Shown here piece by piece: positions 4,001 to 52,729 of a stretch of DNA of 64,000 nucleotides. The notes under the pieces were generated by a model. It was not told the DNA's origin, did not search any database, and was given only the letters and a program-made list of their open reading frames with translations. Position numbers and translations under genes: made by a program. This DNA is from Aerococcus tenax (GTDB taxonomy: Bacteria > Bacillota > Bacilli > Lactobacillales > Aerococcaceae): assembly GCF_003286645.3 (NCBI RefSeq), contig NZ_CP127382.2:1922001-1986000 (forward strand). Reading direction: 5' to 3'. Each line of letters opens with the position of its first letter. The first letter of the stretch is position 1.

Positions 4001-7000
4001 TGAAGATATTTCCTTACTTGCAAGATCCATTAAATCTTTTAGATTTTCGTCTTCTTTTTCATCACAAGTAATAGTATTTCCAAATCTTCCAGATACTTCT
4101 TTCATATCCCCTAATACCATTTGAGGATTATCTACAAAGTATTTATTATAAGTCAAACCCTTTTTATCAGTTGCTAGGTGTATCCAATCGTCATCTCTTT
4201 CTATAACTGAATCTCTCTTCTTTAAGAAAATAATATCTGATGTAACTTCTGTACCAGCAAGTCCTTTAAATGTTGTATTAGGAAGCCTCATAGCTCCTAA
4301 AAACTTACATCTTGCATTAATATATTTTCTAACAGATTCATCTTTTTTATCCATAGTTCCAGATGATGTTATGAAGGCAATAATTCCTCCATTCCTAACC
4401 TTATCTATAGACTTTGCAAAAAAATAATCGTGAATCAGAAAGTTATTTCTGTTATATTCACGATCGTTAACTTTAAAATCTCCAAAGGGAACATTTCCTA
4501 TAACTAAATCAAAGAAATTGTTTGAAAAGTTTGTTTCTTCAAAGCCTTTAATTTGAATGTTAGCTTCAGGATAAAGTTCCCTTGCTATTCTTCCGCTTAG
4601 ACTATCTTTTTCTACTCCATAGACTTTAGAGCTTTGTATTTCACTTGGCATACTTCCAATAAAATTACCGACTCCTGCAGATGGTTCAAGGATATTCCCA
4701 GTCTTAAAACCCATATCTGTTATGGTCTTATATATTCCATCCATTACCTCTCTAGGTGTATAAAATGATGTTAGAGTAGACTCTTTAGCATTCAAATACT
4801 CATCATTTGTTAGATTTTCTTTTAAAATATTTCTTGCTTCAAGCCATTGTCCTCCCTTTTCTTCATCAAAGACATCGGCAAGACCACCCCATCCTAGATA
4901 ATCAGCAAGATAGGCTTGTTCATACTCTCTTGGACTCCTATTTTCATTTTCAAGTCTTTTGAGCATCTTAATAGCTTTTATATTTTTATCTAGCTTTTCT
5001 GATGGTGTTAGGTATTCTGAGTAGATATGATTTTTCAAGTCATAATTTCTAGCAAAACTTAGCCTTTCCTTATTAGGTTCATAGCCTAGATTTTTTAAAT
5101 CCTCTTTACCCCTCAATAAGTTTTCGGCTGCTTCTCTTGGAACATTGTATCTATCCATCATTTGGTCAATTTCAAGATTGTGGTTATCTATAAAGCTTTC
5201 TTGCTCTACTTGTCTTTCAATTTGTTTTTCATGCTCAGATAATTTGTATATCTCATAATTTCCACTATCTAAAAGGTCATCAATCTTTCTACTTTCTTCA
5301 AATGTTTCACCTTTATATAAAGGGAATTCTTCCCCATTAACTTCTACCTTAGTTCCAGCTTCAATTAAGTTAATTCCATCAAAGGTATTCTTATCTTCTA
5401 AAATAAATTCTTTTCCAACCTTTACTGCTAATTTTTCTGATGTTTGAGTTAGATTTTCAAAGATTTCTTCAAGGTATGAATCGTTTCTATATGGAATTAC
5501 TTCCGAACCCCTAATCATACCTCCCATATACTCCATATTATCTCTAATGGTTACAGTTTTAAGTCCTCCACTTAGTTCATCAAAATCTGTAATGGTAAAG
5601 TCCTTATCTTTATATCTAACCTGATCACCTATCTTAAACTTAGGCTCTATCTTTTCCTTAACTTCTTCTTGTGAAGCTTTTTCCTCACTTAGTGCAACTT
5701 GCTCTTCTAAATATGAAAATTCACGCTCATTAACTTCTTCACCATCTCCAAGGTCAATTCTATAATGTTCGACAACTTCGCCGTCTACATAGTGATCAAA
5801 ATAGAATTTGAAATATCCGATATAATCATCAGTCATTTCTCCAAATTCATTTTCTCCATGAGTTTGATTATGGTCTTTAATATCAATATCCTTTTGTCTT
5901 AGGATATTGATTAAGTCTTTAGTTACTATCTGCCCACTATAATCGGGAACTAATTCGTGATTTTCATTAAATTCTACAATCCAGTAATCTTTTCTATTTT
6001 CAGTGTTTTTGCCATCAAAAAAAGAAGCTTCATCAGCTTCCTTTTCTGGACTTATTTCATTTTCTAAGCTTCCACGTATTCCTTGATTGCCATTTTCTTC
6101 ACTGTTGCCATCAAGTTGTTCATCTGTCCTTGGTATTCCTCTGGATTCCCTCTCATCATTTTCTCTGTCAATCCTTGTGCTTTCATCATCTTGACTTTCT
6201 CTCTCTTGATAAAGTCCACTGCCTGATTCTGAATTTCCTTCAGGTGGTTCAAAAGTGTTTTCTCCTCGTACATTTTCTGAAGTTTCTTCCAGTTCTCCAT
6301 GTCTTCGCTCCCTACCAGGTAAGACAGTCTTAGAACTGCGTATGTTGGATTCGGAAATCTCTCCATAAATTCCAGATCCTTCTCCATCATGTCCAAGGTT
6401 TTCTCTTCGATCTTCATTGCTATTTCTTCTGTCGCTTCCATCTGTGAAAACTCGTCCATCTCTACTTCTTGACCTATCATCTCGTCTATATAAATCATCT
6501 TGACCTCCTCTATCTTCATTTATATTTTCTATATCTCTATTATAGTCGGCAGCGGCCCTTTCTGTCAGCAGCCTAGCTCGATCCATTTCCTTAGATTTTT
6601 CTATTGTGCTATCTATAATATCTTCGCTAACTCTTGATATTACAAGACCTATCTGTTCTAAAGAAATTGTATTAATCCTAGAAAAATTATTTTTTAAATT
6701 TTCCATATCCATAGGATAGGCTGTATTAAACCTATTAGCTATCGCATAGGATATTGAGTCTCTCATAAACTTTTCAAAACTCAGTCTATCCTCTACATCT
6801 ATTCTCAAATCAGCAATAGCCAAATTAATATATTCATCTCCATAAATTCGACTTAAAGAAAATATATTTTCGTTTAGTGAATCACTAGCTTCAAATGAAG
6901 AATCTCTTATTATTTCTTTTAAAGCCTCGTTATGGTTTTCGTGGTCAAACTGCCATAAGCTAACCTCATTAATATTCCTATCCATTGATGTGGTTTGACT

Positions 7001-46708: not shown

Positions 46709-46977
46709 ATCAAGTCCCTTTTTCTATTGGGTAACATTCGGCTGATCATTTTTCGCTTAACCACCTCTTTCTCGGCCCAACCACAAGGTCCCAAGCAGCC
46801 TGAATGGAGGCTTGTTAAGAACGCTTTGCGGCTGTCAGCCACATACACAATGCTTGAAGGTCGCGGGGGATTGACTGAGGTCTTTCAGTCAGATGAGACG
46901 AAGTGCCCTGTCAAGCCGTGATCCCGCTCATTCATTTAGTTATAAGTTATTGTGGGTCAATCATAGTGCCTTTAACT

Positions 46978-47010
46978 AAGCCTGTCAATCCCAGATTTGA
47001 TAGGCTTTTT
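46978..47010 (+). terminator. Terminator
   Basis: AAGCCTGTCAA / TTGATAGGCTT stem followed by TTTCCTTCTTTTT on the plus strand. Confidence 0.65.
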
Positions 47011-47340
47011 CCTTCTTTTTCGATACCCTATACCGAAGCCCGTTAAGATCAGCATTTTCAGCTTCCTTAATCGTTTTACTTGATAAATAGCGATATAAAG
47101 TGAATAAGTTTTACTCTTTGGTTATGAAGTGAACATGGCCCCCACAACTAAAATCACCATTGATCACTATTCCATATTCCTGCTAAAAAGCCGATCAGAC
47201 CAAGCTTCCACTGACCGACAGTCTTTGGCTCGCCCCCTCCACTCTTGCTTTTTTCGGTGTGCTTATCTAAGATAAGGGCAATTCAGTCGAACTAATGCAA
47301 CAATAAGTTACTAACGAAAAATTAGAAGGAGTTATGCCCT

Positions 47341-48078
47341 ATGTCACAAGATCTTTCCCAATTACTTAACGCCAAACGCGTCGACCTTTCCCATGAATTG
47401 CACGAAAATATTCCTTTGTTCAATGCCTTTGACCCCATTCAGGAAAAAACCTTGAACACAATCGACCAGGATGGCTTCTACGCCAAAGAATACACCCTAG
47501 CCACCTCTTACGGGACCCATATCGATTCCCCCGGTCACTTTGCAGCAGGTAAACGGCTCTTAGACGGCGTAGGATTGGATGAATTGATCTTGCCGCTCTA
47601 TGTCCTCCACCTAGAAAAAGAAGTCGCTGCTGACTCCGACTTCTCCGTCACTAAAGAGGTCATCTTAGACTACGAAGCTGACCACGGCAAGATTCCCGCG
47701 GGAACTTTTGTTGCCTTTGCCAGTGACTGGTCCAAGCGCTGGGACGATCCCCAAGCCTTCTATAATGAAGACGAAAACGGCCAAGCCCATACCCCTGGTT
47801 GGACCGTGGAGGCCTTAGAATTTCTCGCCCATGAGCGCGATGTCAAAGCCATTGGCCATGAAAACCTGGATACCGATCCTGGGCACATCTACCATGACCA
47901 AGAAGCCTTACCGGGTGAATTCTACTGGCTGGACCAAGACCGCTACCAAGTCGAAGTCTTAAATAACCTCTCCGCCCTACCAACCCAAGGCGCAGTCATC
48001 GTCGTCGCTCCCCTCAAAGTCAAAGGCGCCCCCAGTTTCCCCGCCCGTGTCTATGCCTTGGTAGCTGAAGAGGAGTAA
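47341..48078 (+). CDS. Cyclase family protein (kynurenine formamidase-like)
   Basis: 245 residues. The metal-binding motif THIDSPGHF (His60, Asp62, His66) is the signature of the cyclase/formamidase family (HxDxPxHF). RVDLSHELHENIPLF at the start and GAPSFPARVYALV at the end fit. It likely hydrolyses an N-formyl or cyclic amide. AAGGAG is placed before the ATG at 47341. Stand-alone gene with higher GC than its surroundings; substrate unknown. Confidence 0.88.
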   Translation: MSQDLSQLLNAKRVDLSHELHENIPLFNAFDPIQEKTLNTIDQDGFYAKEYTLATSYGTHIDSPGHFAAGKRLLDGVGLDELILPLYVLHLEKEVAADSDFSVTKEVILDYEADHGKIPAGTFVAFASDWSKRWDDPQAFYNEDENGQAHTPGWTVEALEFLAHERDVKAIGHENLDTDPGHIYHDQEALPGEFYWLDQDRYQVEVLNNLSALPTQGAVIVVAPLKVKGAPSFPARVYALVAEEE

Positions 48079-48131
48079 AGATAATCACCCTATTCATTAA
48101 TATTAAGACTATTTTTCATATTAAAAACTAA

Positions 48132-48168
48132 AACGCGCCCTCTTAAACTCGATCAAGGGCGCGTTGTT
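48132..48168. terminator. Terminator after the cyclase gene
   Basis: AACGCGCCCTCTT pairs with AAGGGCGCGTT, then a T-rich tract. Confidence 0.85.
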
Positions 48169-48210
48169 ATTTTATTCCATAAAGGCACAATTTATTATTG
48201 CATATATAAT

Positions 48211-49146
48211 TTATTTAAATAATTTAAGAACTGATTTTTTATTTTTAAATCCATAATAATTTGCCTTATGATCATTTTCAATTAATTTATTCAATATATT
48301 TCGAATAGAATTAAAACGATAATTAGGATTTATCTGATCCATTAGATACTTAATAATTATTATAGGTAAGGCAATTCTATCTGTAACAATATTATTATCA
48401 TCACCATAGATATAAAGATATTTCTTCCACTCTTCCTTTATTGGAACAGAAGTAATGAAACGTAAGTCAATTAAATCTCGATTATGAGCACAAGTATTTC
48501 GAACTAAATTAAGCATTCTCATCCAGGTATATAATTCATACATCGTACAATTAAAATAATTCGCAATAGGTTCCTTATTACGCCTCGACATTATTTCTAG
48601 CATATAAACTAAATTTCCAAACATAAGCAGATTAATCCCCAACCAAACTGGAGGATACTCGGAATTACCATTCTGTTCAAGTTTATTTATTATTTCACGA
48701 TGGCTATCAGGATTCTTTTTTGCAATCTTAACTTGAGACTTCACCCGATAGTTGACCTTAGATTGGGTTTTAATAATTTTCTTTTTTGAAAAATTATGGA
48801 TATCAGCCCAATTATTTGCTTTAAGATACCCATACTCGCCTGTATTTTTCCCTAAGTAAAAAGCTATCTGTGTTTGTAAAGCCACTTCTATATCTTCAAT
48901 AACATGTAAAATATGTAACCGTAAATTCTTATCTCTATAATACCTTGTAATAACTTCTTCAAATGTAATCGACTTATATTGTTTTACTTCATTGCAATAA
49001 TCTACAAAGGGTTCAGCGAATTCTTTAATTTTATAATAAGATATATAATTTAATGTTTCTTCTGCTCGTTCTGGATCATTAAAATGCATTCCACGTTCTT
49101 GAAATAGACTTACCTGATCTGTAAACTCCTTAGATTCAAAGGCCAT
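48211..49146 (-). CDS. Abi_2 / AbiF family abortive infection protein (HEPN)
   Basis: 311 residues. N-terminal LNYISYYKIKEFAEPF and the RYYRDKNLRLHILHVIEDIEVAL stretch are typical of Abi_2 (AbiD/AbiF). A HEPN RNase motif R-x4-H (RNTCAH, Arg216-His221) sits in the C-terminal half. GGGAGG precedes the ATG. The gene is AT-rich, unlike flanking genes, so acquired. A strongly promoted short structured RNA with terminator lies 70 bp upstream (49217-49293), as reported for AbiF genes. It probably cleaves RNA to stop phage-infected cells and is held in check by that RNA; this last point is inference. Confidence 0.88.
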   Translation of the reverse strand: MAFESKEFTDQVSLFQERGMHFNDPERAEETLNYISYYKIKEFAEPFVDYCNEVKQYKSITFEEVITRYYRDKNLRLHILHVIEDIEVALQTQIAFYLGKNTGEYGYLKANNWADIHNFSKKKIIKTQSKVNYRVKSQVKIAKKNPDSHREIINKLEQNGNSEYPPVWLGINLLMFGNLVYMLEIMSRRNKEPIANYFNCTMYELYTWMRMLNLVRNTCAHNRDLIDLRFITSVPIKEEWKKYLYIYGDDNNIVTDRIALPIIIIKYLMDQINPNYRFNSIRNILNKLIENDHKANYYGFKNKKSVLKLFK

Positions 49147-49216
49147 TTAACTATCCTCCCGTCATACAACTAGAAATAAACATGGTCTTTAGGCATATTA
49201 ACAGAATTTTAAGTAC

Positions 49217-49293
49217 AAAAAAAGCTCCCCGTCAGACGTATCTGTTATGTTCAGTGACCTAAATCACTAAACTGGGGAGCGATTGAGCATTCA
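49217..49293 (-). ncRNA. Structured small RNA upstream of abiF (abiF-motif-like)
   Basis: From a start near 49293 the minus strand folds into an outer stem GCTCCCC/GGGGAGC (49274-49280 with 49224-49230) enclosing two hairpins. Hairpin one is a 9-bp stem GTTTAGTGA/TCACTGAAC with a 6-nt loop. Hairpin two is CAGA-TACG-TCTG. TTTTTTTGT follows the outer stem and makes it an intrinsic terminator. The promoter is TTGACA-17-TAGTAT. The RNA is about 77 nt and ends before the abi gene, so the toxin gene is expressed by read-through or its own start. Confidence 0.7.
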
Positions 49294-49299
49294 CTTATA

Positions 49300-49328
49300 A
49301 TACTACATATTGTGATAGAGATTGTCAA
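49300..49328 (-). promoter_or_regulatory. Sigma-A promoter of the abi-linked RNA
   Basis: Consensus TTGACA (49323-49328), 17-bp spacer, TAGTAT (49300-49305) on the minus strand. Confidence 0.8.
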
Positions 49329-49484
49329 ATTTTTATCTAACTTTTTAGATTAAATTCTAGTACTTGATATATTTATAGCACTAATAGCTTTAAAATTTCA
49401 TGCCAAATAAAACCAACTCCCCCACTAATATCATCACTAATGAGGAAGTTGTTTTTATAGACTTATTCGACTTTTGTCACATTC

Positions 49485-49895
49485 TAACTCAAACCTGTTC
49501 CAAGCGCGAGGTGAGCTCCATTTCAAAAATCCTTGAAAATCCTTTTCAAGGATTTACTGCATACTTCTTCCAATTGCTATAGCTGTTCGAAGTAGAGCGA
49601 GTTACAGATATAGTATGAGTAGCTCTCTCCCCTCTTGATGCGCTTGTCATACTCTAATAGTTGAGTTCGGACGCCAAGCCTTGAAGTTGCTTCAGAAAAT
49701 TCCAAGGCACAGCTTTCCTGTGCTTATGGTATTTTCCTCCAGCAATTCAAGTCTCTGACGGCGTCCTCACATCCTTACAGTTGAGTTTGGAAGGGTGAGG
49801 GGATGTCCTTTCAGAAAAGTTGAATGATCAGCAAGCTGATCTTTTCAACTTTTCTTCCAAGGAAGCGCCCTCCCTGATCCTTCCTCACATCCTTA
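49485..49895. repeat. Mosaic of palindromic repeats, locus 1
   Basis: The gap holds adjacent palindromic modules. (B) AAATCCTTGAAAA-TCC-TTTTCAAGGATTT, perfect 13-bp arms at 49527-49555. (C) the unit 49576-49626 with CTATAGCTGT/ACAGATATAG arms. (A) the 72-nt hairpin 49680-49751 (CTTGAAGTTGCT...AGCAATTCAAG). (D) AAAAGTTGAA...TTCAACTTTT around 49814-49853. Modules are joined by TCACATCCTTA- or TCATACTCT-like links. The same modules recur at 51,190-51,780 and 59,406-59,556. Confidence 0.75.
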
Positions 49896-49897
49896 TT

Positions 49898-51151
49898 CTA
49901 AATAAGCCCTTTTTCTTTAAGTTCAGCAATTTTCTCTTCGGAGTAACCTAGGAGGTCGCCATAGACTAATTCATTATCTTGACCCATGGCTGGAGCACCC
50001 CGCCAGACTTTCCCTGGGGTTTCGCTCATGTGTGGCACCACCCCGAAGGCAGTGACTTCTTCGCCACTGGTTTGGTCGGTATAGGTCACGAAGTTGTTGC
50101 GGGCCTTGAAGTGCTCGGAATTGAGGGCATCTGAGGCCTTGTTCACCTTGGAAGCCGGTACCCGGTGAGCGTTTAGGGTGTCTTCGATTTCCTTAGCGGT
50201 CCGTTGACTACACCATTCTTTAATCTTTTGGTCGAGCTCTTGGCCACGTTCAGACATCACGGCATCTACCCCGTTACCAGCGACTTCATAGGCGAAGTAT
50301 TCCTTGTCGAAGCCGACTGCTTCAAGGAAACGGTTATAAACATTGCGTCCAAAGGCACCAACCACCACGTATTCCCCGTTCTTGTCGAAGAAGAGGCCGT
50401 AAGGTTGGAAGGCCGTGGTCTTGTTACCGGTCCGTTCCTTGTCTTCCCCATTCTCGGTATAGGTCACAAAGGTATCACAGAGGATCCGGGCCATGGCTTC
50501 ATATTGGGCCACATCCACCACTTGGCCTTTACCAGTCTTTTGGGCGTGGATATAAGCCGCTAGGACTCCATAAGTCGCGTTTAGAGCAGACACATAGTCG
50601 TTGAGATAAGGTTTCACGACCATTGGGGCCCCATCCGGTTCCCCGTTCAAGTTCAAGAAGCCACCGTAAGCTTGGCCGATCATGTCAAAGGAGGCCCGTC
50701 CGGAAACCCCTTCTTCGCCACCAAAGGCTTCTTGGCCGAAACCAGAGATGTGGCAGATGACGAGTTTTGGATTAGCTTCTAACATTTCATCATCGTCAAT
50801 GCCTAATTTCTTCAACCACACCATATTGTCCATGAAGATATCGACTTCTTTAATCAAGTCGAGGAAAACTGCCTTGGCGTCTTCATTGTTGAGGTTGGAT
50901 TCTAGGGTAATACTTAAACGGTTCCGCGCGTCTTGCATCCAGCCGTTAGACACCTTGGTTTTTTTAGAGAAAGGCGCCAACATCCGCAGCGAGTCCCCCA
51001 TACCGGGACGTTCGATTTGAATAAATTCAGCCCCTAAGTCGGCTAAGAGGTTACCGACATGTGGCATGGCCACAATGGAACCTAAACCGAGGATTCTCAC
51101 GCCATGTAAGGGACCGTATTCAGGAATTAAGTCTTTACGAGTTTCAGTCAT
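49898..51151 (-). CDS. CaiB/BaiF family (class III) CoA-transferase
   Basis: 417 residues: GVRILGLGSIVAMPHVGNLLADLGAEFIQIERPG at the N-terminus and RASFDMIGQAYGGFL, whose Asp is the expected catalytic residue forming the aspartyl-CoA thioester. ATYGVLAAYIHAQKTGKGQVVDVAQYEA is family-typical. It moves CoA between carboxylic acids. Clustered with a FabK-like flavoprotein and an enoyl-CoA hydratase but separated by a 630-bp repeat-filled gap. Substrate unknown; carnitine- or formyl-CoA-like acids are possible. Confidence 0.9.
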   Translation of the reverse strand: MTETRKDLIPEYGPLHGVRILGLGSIVAMPHVGNLLADLGAEFIQIERPGMGDSLRMLAPFSKKTKVSNGWMQDARNRLSITLESNLNNEDAKAVFLDLIKEVDIFMDNMVWLKKLGIDDDEMLEANPKLVICHISGFGQEAFGGEEGVSGRASFDMIGQAYGGFLNLNGEPDGAPMVVKPYLNDYVSALNATYGVLAAYIHAQKTGKGQVVDVAQYEAMARILCDTFVTYTENGEDKERTGNKTTAFQPYGLFFDKNGEYVVVGAFGRNVYNRFLEAVGFDKEYFAYEVAGNGVDAVMSERGQELDQKIKEWCSQRTAKEIEDTLNAHRVPASKVNKASDALNSEHFKARNNFVTYTDQTSGEEVTAFGVVPHMSETPGKVWRGAPAMGQDNELVYGDLLGYSEEKIAELKEKGLI

Positions 51152-51189
51152 GCTTTATCTTCCTCCTTGAATGATTTTTTCTTTTTAGA

Positions 51190-51780
51190 ATGATTAGGCT
51201 AGGTCAAAAATCCTAGTCTCTTTTCAAACGTGTTCCAGTCACACTCTATTAAACGTGTTCCGGGTGCAGATCGATCTCTACTTCACTAAAGCCCAAGAAA
51301 TTCTTTTCAAGAATTTTTGTTCTTTAGTTCCAGTTGCTATAGCTGTTCGAAGCGTCAGCGAGTTACAGATATAGTATGCGTAGCTCTATCGATCTTTGAC
51401 GCCCCCGTCACACTCTCTTAAAATGTGTTCCAAGCGCTGAGCAAGCGTCCGCTTCACACAGGGTGTGAGACTTGGCGCTGAGGCTTGGATGATTGGAGCA
51501 AGTCAGAATAAAAGCGAAACATTCGCTTGTTTCTAACTTGTGAAATCACTCCAAGTCTGCCAAGGCGAACCCAACTAAAAACTGGTAAGGCTCAGTCTAG
51601 TTGAGTTCATACGCCAGACTTGAAGTTGCTTCAGAAAATTCCAACACACAGGTTTCTGTGCTTATGGTATTTTCCTCCAGCAATTCAAGTCTTTGACGGC
51701 GTCCTCACATCCTTATAACTGAGCTTATTCCAGTTTTCTCCAGCGATTTCGTCCTTTAATGTGACTGTCACACTCTCTTC
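51190..51780. repeat. Mosaic of palindromic repeats, locus 2
   Basis: Contains module C (51336-51387) and module A (51619-51689), both closely matching locus 1, plus a third long hairpin (51484-51555, CTTGGATGATTGGAG...CACTCCAAG). GTGTTCCAAGCGC-type and TCACACTCT links separate them. No ORF with an RBS was found. Confidence 0.75.
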
Positions 51781-51781
51781 T

Positions 51782-52729
51782 TTAAATTTTCTTGTCAGCT
51801 AAGGCGTCAATAACTTCATTGGCTTCTTGGAAGATGGATTCGATAATTTCTTTGACCGGGCGGACTTCATGGATTAAGCCAGCAATTTGCCCGTAAGTCA
51901 CGATTTCTTCCTTCACATCACCGTCTGCAGCAGCCTTGGTGAGGGATGGAATGGTGTAGGCCTCAATGCCTTTAACATCTACATCAGGATCCATATCCAT
52001 GTCGTGGTGTTTCTTGGCGGCAGCGTTCTTTTCAATCCGGATCGGAGCCCCGGTCATGGAGCCTGACACAAAGGTCGCGGTGTCGTTTGCGTCCACGATA
52101 GCTTGTTTGTAGTTGTCATGGATTGGCGCTTCGTTTGAAGCCACGAGGACAGTTCCGACTTGGACGCCGTCAGCACCTAGGGCATAGGCAGCCGCTAAAC
52201 CGTGGCCGTCCGCGATCCCACCTGCTGCAATGACAGGGACATGGTCAACCGCTTCAACGGCTTGGCGGGTTAGGGTCATGGTGGTGGCTTGACCCACGTG
52301 ACCTCCTGCTTCCATCCCTTCAACGACTACGCCGTCCGCGCCAGCATCTTCTACCTTGCGGGCTACCCGGGCGCTTGGCACCACTGGGAAGATCTTAGCG
52401 TCAGCTTCATGAATCATGTCGATGAAAGGCACCGGGTCCCCCGCACCGGTAGTAAAGAATTTCACACCTTCGTCAATAAGGACTTCAAGAACTTCTTTAG
52501 CGTTACCAGAAATAATAGCTACGTTGGCTCCAAAAGGTTTGTCGGTTAATTCCCGGGTCTTTTGCACCGCTTCACGGATCTTGGCTTCGTCTTTCATCCC
52601 AGCGGTCATTAGGATTCCCATCCCACCGGCATTGGAGACTGCAGCGACTAGTTCTGGACGGGAAATTCCTCCCATGGCCCCACAAAAGATTGGGTATTTA
52701 ATTCCTAACATTTCACATACATCGGTCAT
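51782..52729 (-). CDS. Nitronate monooxygenase / FabK-like FMN enzyme
   Basis: 315 residues from ATG 52729 (GGAGG eight bases upstream). TIM-barrel FMN pattern: YPIFCGAMGGISRPELVAAVSNAGGMGIL, FGANVAIIS, GVVVEGMEAGGHVG with the GGH site, PVIAAGGIADGHGLAAAYALGADGVQVGT. Family members oxidise alkyl nitronates or act as FabK enoyl-ACP reductases. Placed 60 bp after the enoyl-CoA hydratase gene, it may reduce an enoyl-CoA product in the same pathway; this is inference. Confidence 0.88.
   Translation of the reverse strand: MTDVCEMLGIKYPIFCGAMGGISRPELVAAVSNAGGMGILMTAGMKDEAKIREAVQKTRELTDKPFGANVAIISGNAKEVLEVLIDEGVKFFTTGAGDPVPFIDMIHEADAKIFPVVPSARVARKVEDAGADGVVVEGMEAGGHVGQATTMTLTRQAVEAVDHVPVIAAGGIADGHGLAAAYALGADGVQVGTVLVASNEAPIHDNYKQAIVDANDTATFVSGSMTGAPIRIEKNAAAKKHHDMDMDPDVDVKGIEAYTIPSLTKAAADGDVKEEIVTYGQIAGLIHEVRPVKEIIESIFQEANEVIDALADKKI

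Follow-up and report, generated by a model that had tools for sequence, protein, structure and literature searches.

A conserved three-way-junction RNA paired with a putative AbiF-like HEPN ribonuclease gene in Aerococcus tenax, and stand-alone copies in phages as candidate decoys

In Aerococcus tenax, an abi gene follows a short segment that looks like an RNA gene of its own, which raises the question of whether the two form an RNA-toxin module and, if so, which kind of RNA is involved. We analysed this locus within the window, the whole stretch of 64,000 nucleotides of A. tenax DNA in which it lies (Table 1). The original prediction described a TTGACA-17-TAGTAT promoter, a ~77-nt RNA closed by a 7-bp stem (GCTCCCC/GGGGAGC) around hairpins of 9 and 4 bp, a T7 tract and, 70 nt further on, the open reading frame of a toxin, and nearly all of these parts were recovered. 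A scan of 47900-50000 gave 13 promoter-like sites, among which this promoter, on the minus strand, ranks in the top three; the RNA start was inferred from its position. Computed for 49292-49214, the fold comprises P1 of 7 bp and two hairpins at -28 kcal/mol (z -4.3; 1 of 200 shuffles equally good); the shorter hairpin has the predicted 4 bp and the longer one 10 bp, not 9. From the T7 tract to the ATG at 49146, the spacer measures 70 nt, as predicted, and the order promoter-RNA-terminator-toxin is the one reported for AbiF/RCd22 of Clostridioides difficile (PMC12373285). A chance hairpin was ruled out by the shuffle fold test, covariation and a held-out model match. A. tenax UMB3669 (CP127381.1) has the same Abi protein (100% identity) and the same upstream DNA (194 of 194 bases). 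This 591,691-base circular record (L128) is labelled a plasmid and carries the abi neighbourhood together with metabolic genes; it may be chromosomal sequence mislabelled as a plasmid. Elsewhere in the window, a terminator-like 17-bp inverted repeat lies upstream of the RNA promoter (49414-49451, minus strand), and the sole Rfam match above gathering score is SpF39_sRNA (RF02434; 29735-29838, minus strand, 98 bits).

Table 1. Parts of the abi locus, with positions counted from the first letter of the window
Feature	Position	Strand	Basis
Sigma-70-type promoter, TTGACA-17-TAGTAT	49300..49328	-	10/12 consensus
-35 box TTGACA	49328-49323	-	
-10 box TAGTAT, 17 nt from the -35 box	49305-49300	-	
R1-family three-way-junction RNA, ~77 nt, start ~49293	49217..49293	-	fold, held-out covariance-model match
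Unpaired leader CUCAAUC	49281..49287	-	sequence
Closing stem P1, 5' strand GCTCCCC	49274..49280	-	sequence, fold
Hairpin P2, 10 bp	49249..49272	-	fold
Hairpin P3, CAGA-UACG-UCUG, 4 bp	49233..49244	-	fold
P1 3' strand GGGGAGC, doubling as terminator stem	49224..49230	-	sequence, fold
Terminator T7 tract	49217..49223	-	sequence
Ribosome binding site GGGAGG	49155..49160	-	sequence
abi gene, 311 aa, Abi_2 / AbiD-F HEPN protein	48211..49146	-	ORF, profiles, predicted structure
HEPN motif R216-N-T-C-A-H221	48484..48501	-	conserved in alignments

The assignment of the gene product to AbiF/AbiD-type HEPN proteins with a predicted AbiF fold is supported by profiles and by modelling, in line with the Abi_2 domain and R-x4-H motif proposed for it earlier. 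It matches the Abi_2 Pfam domain at 132.8 bits (cut-off 25.6, E 2.2e-38), PADLOC profiles assign it to AbiD (E 8e-42), and NCBIfam profiles gave no match at 0.001. Within RNTCAH (residues 216-221), R216, N217, and H221 do not vary in two alignments that include the window, one of 26 sequences and one of 28. Among solved structures, a sequence search at E<=1 returned a single relative, 8vz6 (E 7.7e-21), and the AlphaFold2 model (pLDDT 90.8) had this same entry, PbAbiF bound to its ncRNA, as its single PDB match at E<=0.001 (TM 0.74/0.77). Initial scans of genome contigs and viral sequences with a single protein query returned no relative. The kin genome G001, to which 40% of the window's sampled 31-mers are common, was considered as a source of an empty site and gave no DNA match to 46900-52700; thus, the window may hold, elsewhere, mobile DNA common to an unrelated genome. 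Relatives of G001 supplied distant Abi_2 and RF03085 genes and were also searched for the RNA.

The regions upstream of related abi genes are built alike, with a leader that mostly reads GACAAU, a closing stem, a P2 that varies, P3 around CAGAUACGUUCUGA, and a T-run, and we refer to this RNA family as R1. After a strict regular expression, which caught 5 of 54 upstream regions, had been replaced, 86 sources were searched for R1; 56 matched, and 30 did not (L001-L021, L033, L037, L039, L045, L096, L127, and L133-L135). The model was built from 35 of the matched sources, as an alignment of 35 non-redundant copies from which the window was excluded. Covariation in homologous loci, on which the original prediction had been staked, is present: 11 of the 13 pairs proposed by RNAalifold for these 35 relatives show compensatory changes, and paired cells (89.9% vs 78.6%), covariation score (0.455 vs 0.237), and double-change cells (65 vs 20.9) all exceed those in shuffles. 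P3 pairs better than any other hairpin of the family (97.9% of cells), leader columns C18 and A20, which hold the C and the second A of CAA, are 100% conserved in the 35 Abi-linked copies, and two Ts of the T-run are invariant. With the model that excludes it, the window RNA is the top match in the 64 kb (49297-49217, 31.8 bits), at a rough E-value of 2.6e-4 against 0.33 for the runner-up; it is the single match with E below 0.3, i.e., the window has no tandem RNA repeats. The three-helix fold, the leader CAA, and the CAGA...UCUG of P3 are all there, and the window RNA is a member of R1. It is also an outlier, since its P2 is longer than that of its relatives (~2-5 bp in single-sequence folds), and, with the identical copy of L128, it has the lowest score of the 56 matched sources. 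Kissing loops through the ACGU of P3 were considered and dropped by eye because several copies carry AAG or other letters.

Judged by its covariation, R1 is a real conserved structured RNA family, distinct from RF03085. Neither the window nor the relatives' loci gave an Rfam 15 match for it, and searches of an open-licence library brought up no title or abstract start naming an R1-like RNA. R1 precedes Abi_2 genes in Streptococcus, Enterococcus, Tetragenococcus, Lactobacillaceae, Staphylococcus, Veillonella, and a Fusobacteriaceae bin (L044), and it is present in a Melainabacteria bin (L049) as well. In a tree of 62 Abi_2 proteins, made by a quick method and labelled by covariance searches, 37 R1 rows and four Companilactobacillus rows without R1 form one group (SH-aLRT 100), the 11 RF03085 rows fall outside it, and one change separates R1 from RF03085. 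The window protein groups with L052 (96) and L053 (97), both R1-bearing. Neither RNA was detected upstream of the four Companilactobacillus genes (L033, L037, L039, and L045), where it may have been lost, replaced, or gone unrecognised. As read from these labels, RNA type tracks Abi_2 clade, which is a clade-specific pairing.

R1 also occurs away from abi genes. A search of 395 genomes from the order of G250 (the Streptococcus sobrinus genome of L026) gave 25 R1 matches in 21 genomes. Eight have an Abi_2 gene downstream (L160, L165, L166, L167, L170, L171, L183, and L185), seven of them encoding proteins that share 98.7-100% identity with proteins at model loci, so that L183 alone is new; the other 17 have none within the fetched stretches. 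Among relatives of G001, the R1 searches gave one match, L143, likewise without Abi_2 in its fetched stretch. Ten neighbour proteins at nine stand-alone loci were terminase subunits or HNH endonucleases (L143, L168, L173, L175, L176, L180, L187, and L188) or an exonuclease (L181). Some stand-alone loci adjoin tRNA, mcrA, rli62, or rliG RNAs, and ARAGORN found no tRNA in most of them. Decay of former abi loci was rejected as their origin: tblastn at E<=1e-3 found no abi remnant in 39 of 39 loci, within fetched stretches of which some are under 2 kb, and found the gene in 8 of 8 Abi-linked controls. In two cases, an abiF-like RNA below gathering score lies 13-14 nt downstream of a stand-alone R1 (L168:1451-1487, minus strand, 32.1 bits; L229:601-637, plus strand, 30.2 bits); with weak folds and altered bulges, these are a hint only.

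Annotated stand-alone copies are found in Streptococcus phages Javan169 (71 bits) and Javan131 (38 bits) and in Listeria phage PSA (54 bits), and in the Streptococcus thermophilus phages 9872 (57.9), 53 (69.3), and TP-J34 (66.4) R1 follows the lysis genes. The TP-J34 copy is annotated as a terminator, and in phage 9872 an annotated 'hypothetical protein' (L272:3996-4133, plus strand), which may not be a real gene, overlaps the RNA (4055-4117). Searches by blastn with the RNAs of phage 9872 (63 nt), Javan169, and PSA returned 44 phage records, 42 records, and 7 records, respectively, in sets that overlap and hold duplicates and, for Javan169, include Abi-linked copies. We surveyed 28 virus records, some of which may be fragments, picked for an R1 seemingly unlinked to abi, except L154 and L275. 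R1 was found in 27 and an Abi_2 gene in two, Javan131, which has one Abi-linked copy and one array copy, and virus contig G659, where an RF03085-like RNA (31.5 bits, below gathering) adjoins Abi_2 and R1 lies 18 kb away; a truncated abi piece in G672 (L154) was missed by this Abi_2 search. L239, L260, and L261 of a 23-match R1 set were left out of the survey; the former two are Abi-linked, and L261 has no abi gene within its 3.2 kb. A match in Aerococcus phage vB_AviM_AVP (L274) was not R1 (15 bits). This phage has seven tRNA genes and a ROOL RNA within a non-coding stretch, and a 65-base element common to an R1-bearing virus contig.

Abi-linked and stand-alone copies differ in their signals. 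We compared 36 Abi-linked copies, window included, with 28 stand-alone ones, left from 31 after the near copies L212, L238, and L257 had been dropped. A promoter with at least 10 of 12 consensus positions, in a score that requires a -35 box, precedes 26/36 Abi-linked copies (ending no more than 6 nt from the start of the RNA model) and 0/28 stand-alone ones, and a T-run of at least five follows 35/36 vs 10/28, with p-values (1e-9 and 4e-9) that are rough, the rows being related. With TGTTATAAT just upstream and T6-T7 after them, the S. thermophilus copies resemble small RNA genes in their own right that use an extended -10, and the array copies mostly look embedded. Aligned alone, 19 stand-alone copies, which had been picked out with the R1 model or with R1-like patterns and are thus biased toward the R1 fold, show the same three helices with compensatory changes in 12 of 13 pairs, and their leader columns C13 and A15 are 100% conserved.

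Taken with its upstream RNA, the window gene very probably belongs to a two-part RNA-toxin module, in which the RNA would act as an antitoxin and attenuator restraining the AbiF-like RNase. One promoter would drive the ~77-nt RNA, which would end at its own terminator, and occasional read-through would yield the mRNA of the HEPN ribonuclease. The terminator would thereby keep this mRNA scarce, as an attenuator, and the abundant RNA would bind the ribonuclease dimer and hold it inactive. If the RNA were lost, e.g., because a phage shuts off transcription in its host, a presumably toxic ribonuclease would be released and would halt the cell. The original prediction likewise supposed the RNase to be restrained until phage infection. 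The nearly invariant leader CAA and P3 are likely, as putative contacts, to meet the protein. The conserved fold, the clade-specific pairing with Abi_2, the predicted AbiF fold, the catalytic motif, and the promoter-terminator layout speak for this module; the four Companilactobacillus genes of the same clade without upstream R1, the low score of the window copy, and the lack of a PbAbiFr-like bulge speak against it. The same logic is suggested by C. difficile, where the parts stand in the same order with another RNA: AbiF is reported to be toxic, and RCd22, made from a SigA promoter upstream of abiF and equipped with a terminator, to neutralise it in cis and in trans and to bind the protein directly, with abiF mRNA 17-fold higher in its absence (PMC12373285). 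The distance between T-run and start, 11-26 nt in 27 of the 35 modelled relatives (start codon chosen by script), is too short for a second promoter. The 70-nt spacer of the window leaves room for one and may contain a separate weak promoter for abi.

The original prediction went further and took the RNA for the known abiF motif, which did not hold. A cmscan of 401 bases of the window found no RF03085 at E<=10, and none was found at E<=1 in 11 of 11 loci of the gene's relatives; of the 12 loci searched, the C. difficile positive control, L127, was the one to match (37.6 bits). Membership in the Rfam motif is thus ruled out, and that the window RNA is a divergent offshoot of it appears improbable. 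Both RNAs precede an Abi_2 gene, and they resemble each other, by eye, in a C/G-rich closing stem and a single-stranded CAA(A)U; however, the single hairpin and bulge of RF03085 are replaced in R1 by two hairpins, and L001-L021 gave no R1 match. RF03085 itself was found in 9 of 18 distant Abi_2 loci, at L012 on the strand opposite to the gene. Inhibition by PbAbiFr is credited to its single-stranded bulge (PMC12737573), a feature without a direct counterpart in R1. Alternatively, the RNA could be a cis attenuator alone, a structured leader with a terminator that some signal would relieve, and have no action on the protein. Such a leader fits P1 with the T-run that follows it in 35/36 Abi-linked copies and its two invariant Ts, and RCd22 is reported to reduce abiF transcription as well (PMC12373285). 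Yet invariant columns are also present in two parts that are dispensable for a terminator, P3 and the unpaired leader, stand-alone copies keep leader, P3, and covariation although 18/28 lack a T-run of five, and RCd22 acts in trans too according to the same report (PMC12373285). We regard an attenuator alone as quite improbable.

What, then, might the stand-alone copies do? It is tempting to speculate that R1 is a second class of AbiF-type antitoxin RNA and that its phage copies, in late tRNA/ncRNA arrays or as small RNA genes after the lysis cassette, are decoys that would bind the host's Abi ribonuclease, or that of a rival prophage, and silence it, a proposal to which we give slightly less than an even chance. 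Over 55 bases, the copy in Javan169 has 98.2% identity (1/55 differs) with copies in six phages, Javan119, 131, 135, 161, and 170 of Streptococcus dysgalactiae and 491 of Streptococcus pyogenes, among them phages of the same host species. All six copies begin 97 bases ahead of an Abi_2 match in their own phage. Javan169 itself lacks an Abi_2 gene, and this near-identity is what a decoy tuned to the toxin of its host or of a rival prophage would look like. A changed P3 in L182, the missing leader of L188 and L271, a single-sequence fold of L173 without P2 (z -1.4), and the altered bulges and sub-threshold scores of the RF03085-like neighbours count against decoys. R1 could instead be at root a phage RNA with another task, e.g., packaging or RNA processing in late arrays, that was adopted by Abi genes, and in arrays it may have such a role. 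The 17/25 genome matches without Abi_2 downstream and the eight stand-alone loci near terminase or HNH genes agree with this origin; against it, copies also follow lysis genes with no packaging gene annotated within 4 kb (phage 9872) or 2.5 kb (phage 53), and R1 tracks one clade of the Abi_2 tree. On balance, a phage RNA with another task as the root of R1 seems rather unlikely.

The window very probably holds a real defence module, and the decoy role of the stand-alone phage copies is a specific, testable claim. In S. thermophilus, AbiD is reported as the most common accessory defence, in 74/263 strains (PMC12322248). With R1, a likely antitoxin can be named for many Abi_2 genes in streptococci and lactic acid bacteria. 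That a separate Abi_2 clade has an RNA of a second architecture would show the toxin to be capable of switching its RNA partner, and, if stand-alone copies do silence Abi, part of the unexplained phage ncRNA would be a readable anti-defence layer.

ToxIN, CptIN, and TenpIN are laid out as RNA, terminator, and RNase gene, and ToxI consists of tandem RNA repeats. The window resembles these type III toxin-antitoxin systems in layout only, with an RNase gene immediately preceded by an RNA gene and a terminator under one promoter, and differs from them in its HEPN toxin and single RNA copy. Racr anti-CRISPRs are described as defence RNAs that phage genomes carry in solitary copies, and work cited in the discussion of the same paper covers antitoxin RNAs mimicked by phages (PMC10651486). 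Racr RNAs are CRISPR repeats in phages, whereas the R1 copies are of an Abi-type RNA and would be, in parallel to them, putative RNA anti-Abi agents. By its PADLOC assignment, the window protein is akin to AbiD, AbiD1, and AbiF of Lactococcus lactis; AbiD1 is described as controlled at translation (PMC2661086), and a relative, orf57 of Lactococcus phage TP712, has R1 upstream. AbiF is regarded as a Cas13 precursor, and its RNA as a forerunner of the guide (PMC12737573, PMC12948488). With AbiF and RF03085, i.e., RCd22-AbiFCd and AbiFr-PbAbiF (8vz6), the window has in common an Abi_2 HEPN protein with R-x4-H, an upstream structured RNA, a promoter, and a terminator, but its RNA is a three-way junction with a conserved leader and its protein belongs to a separate clade.
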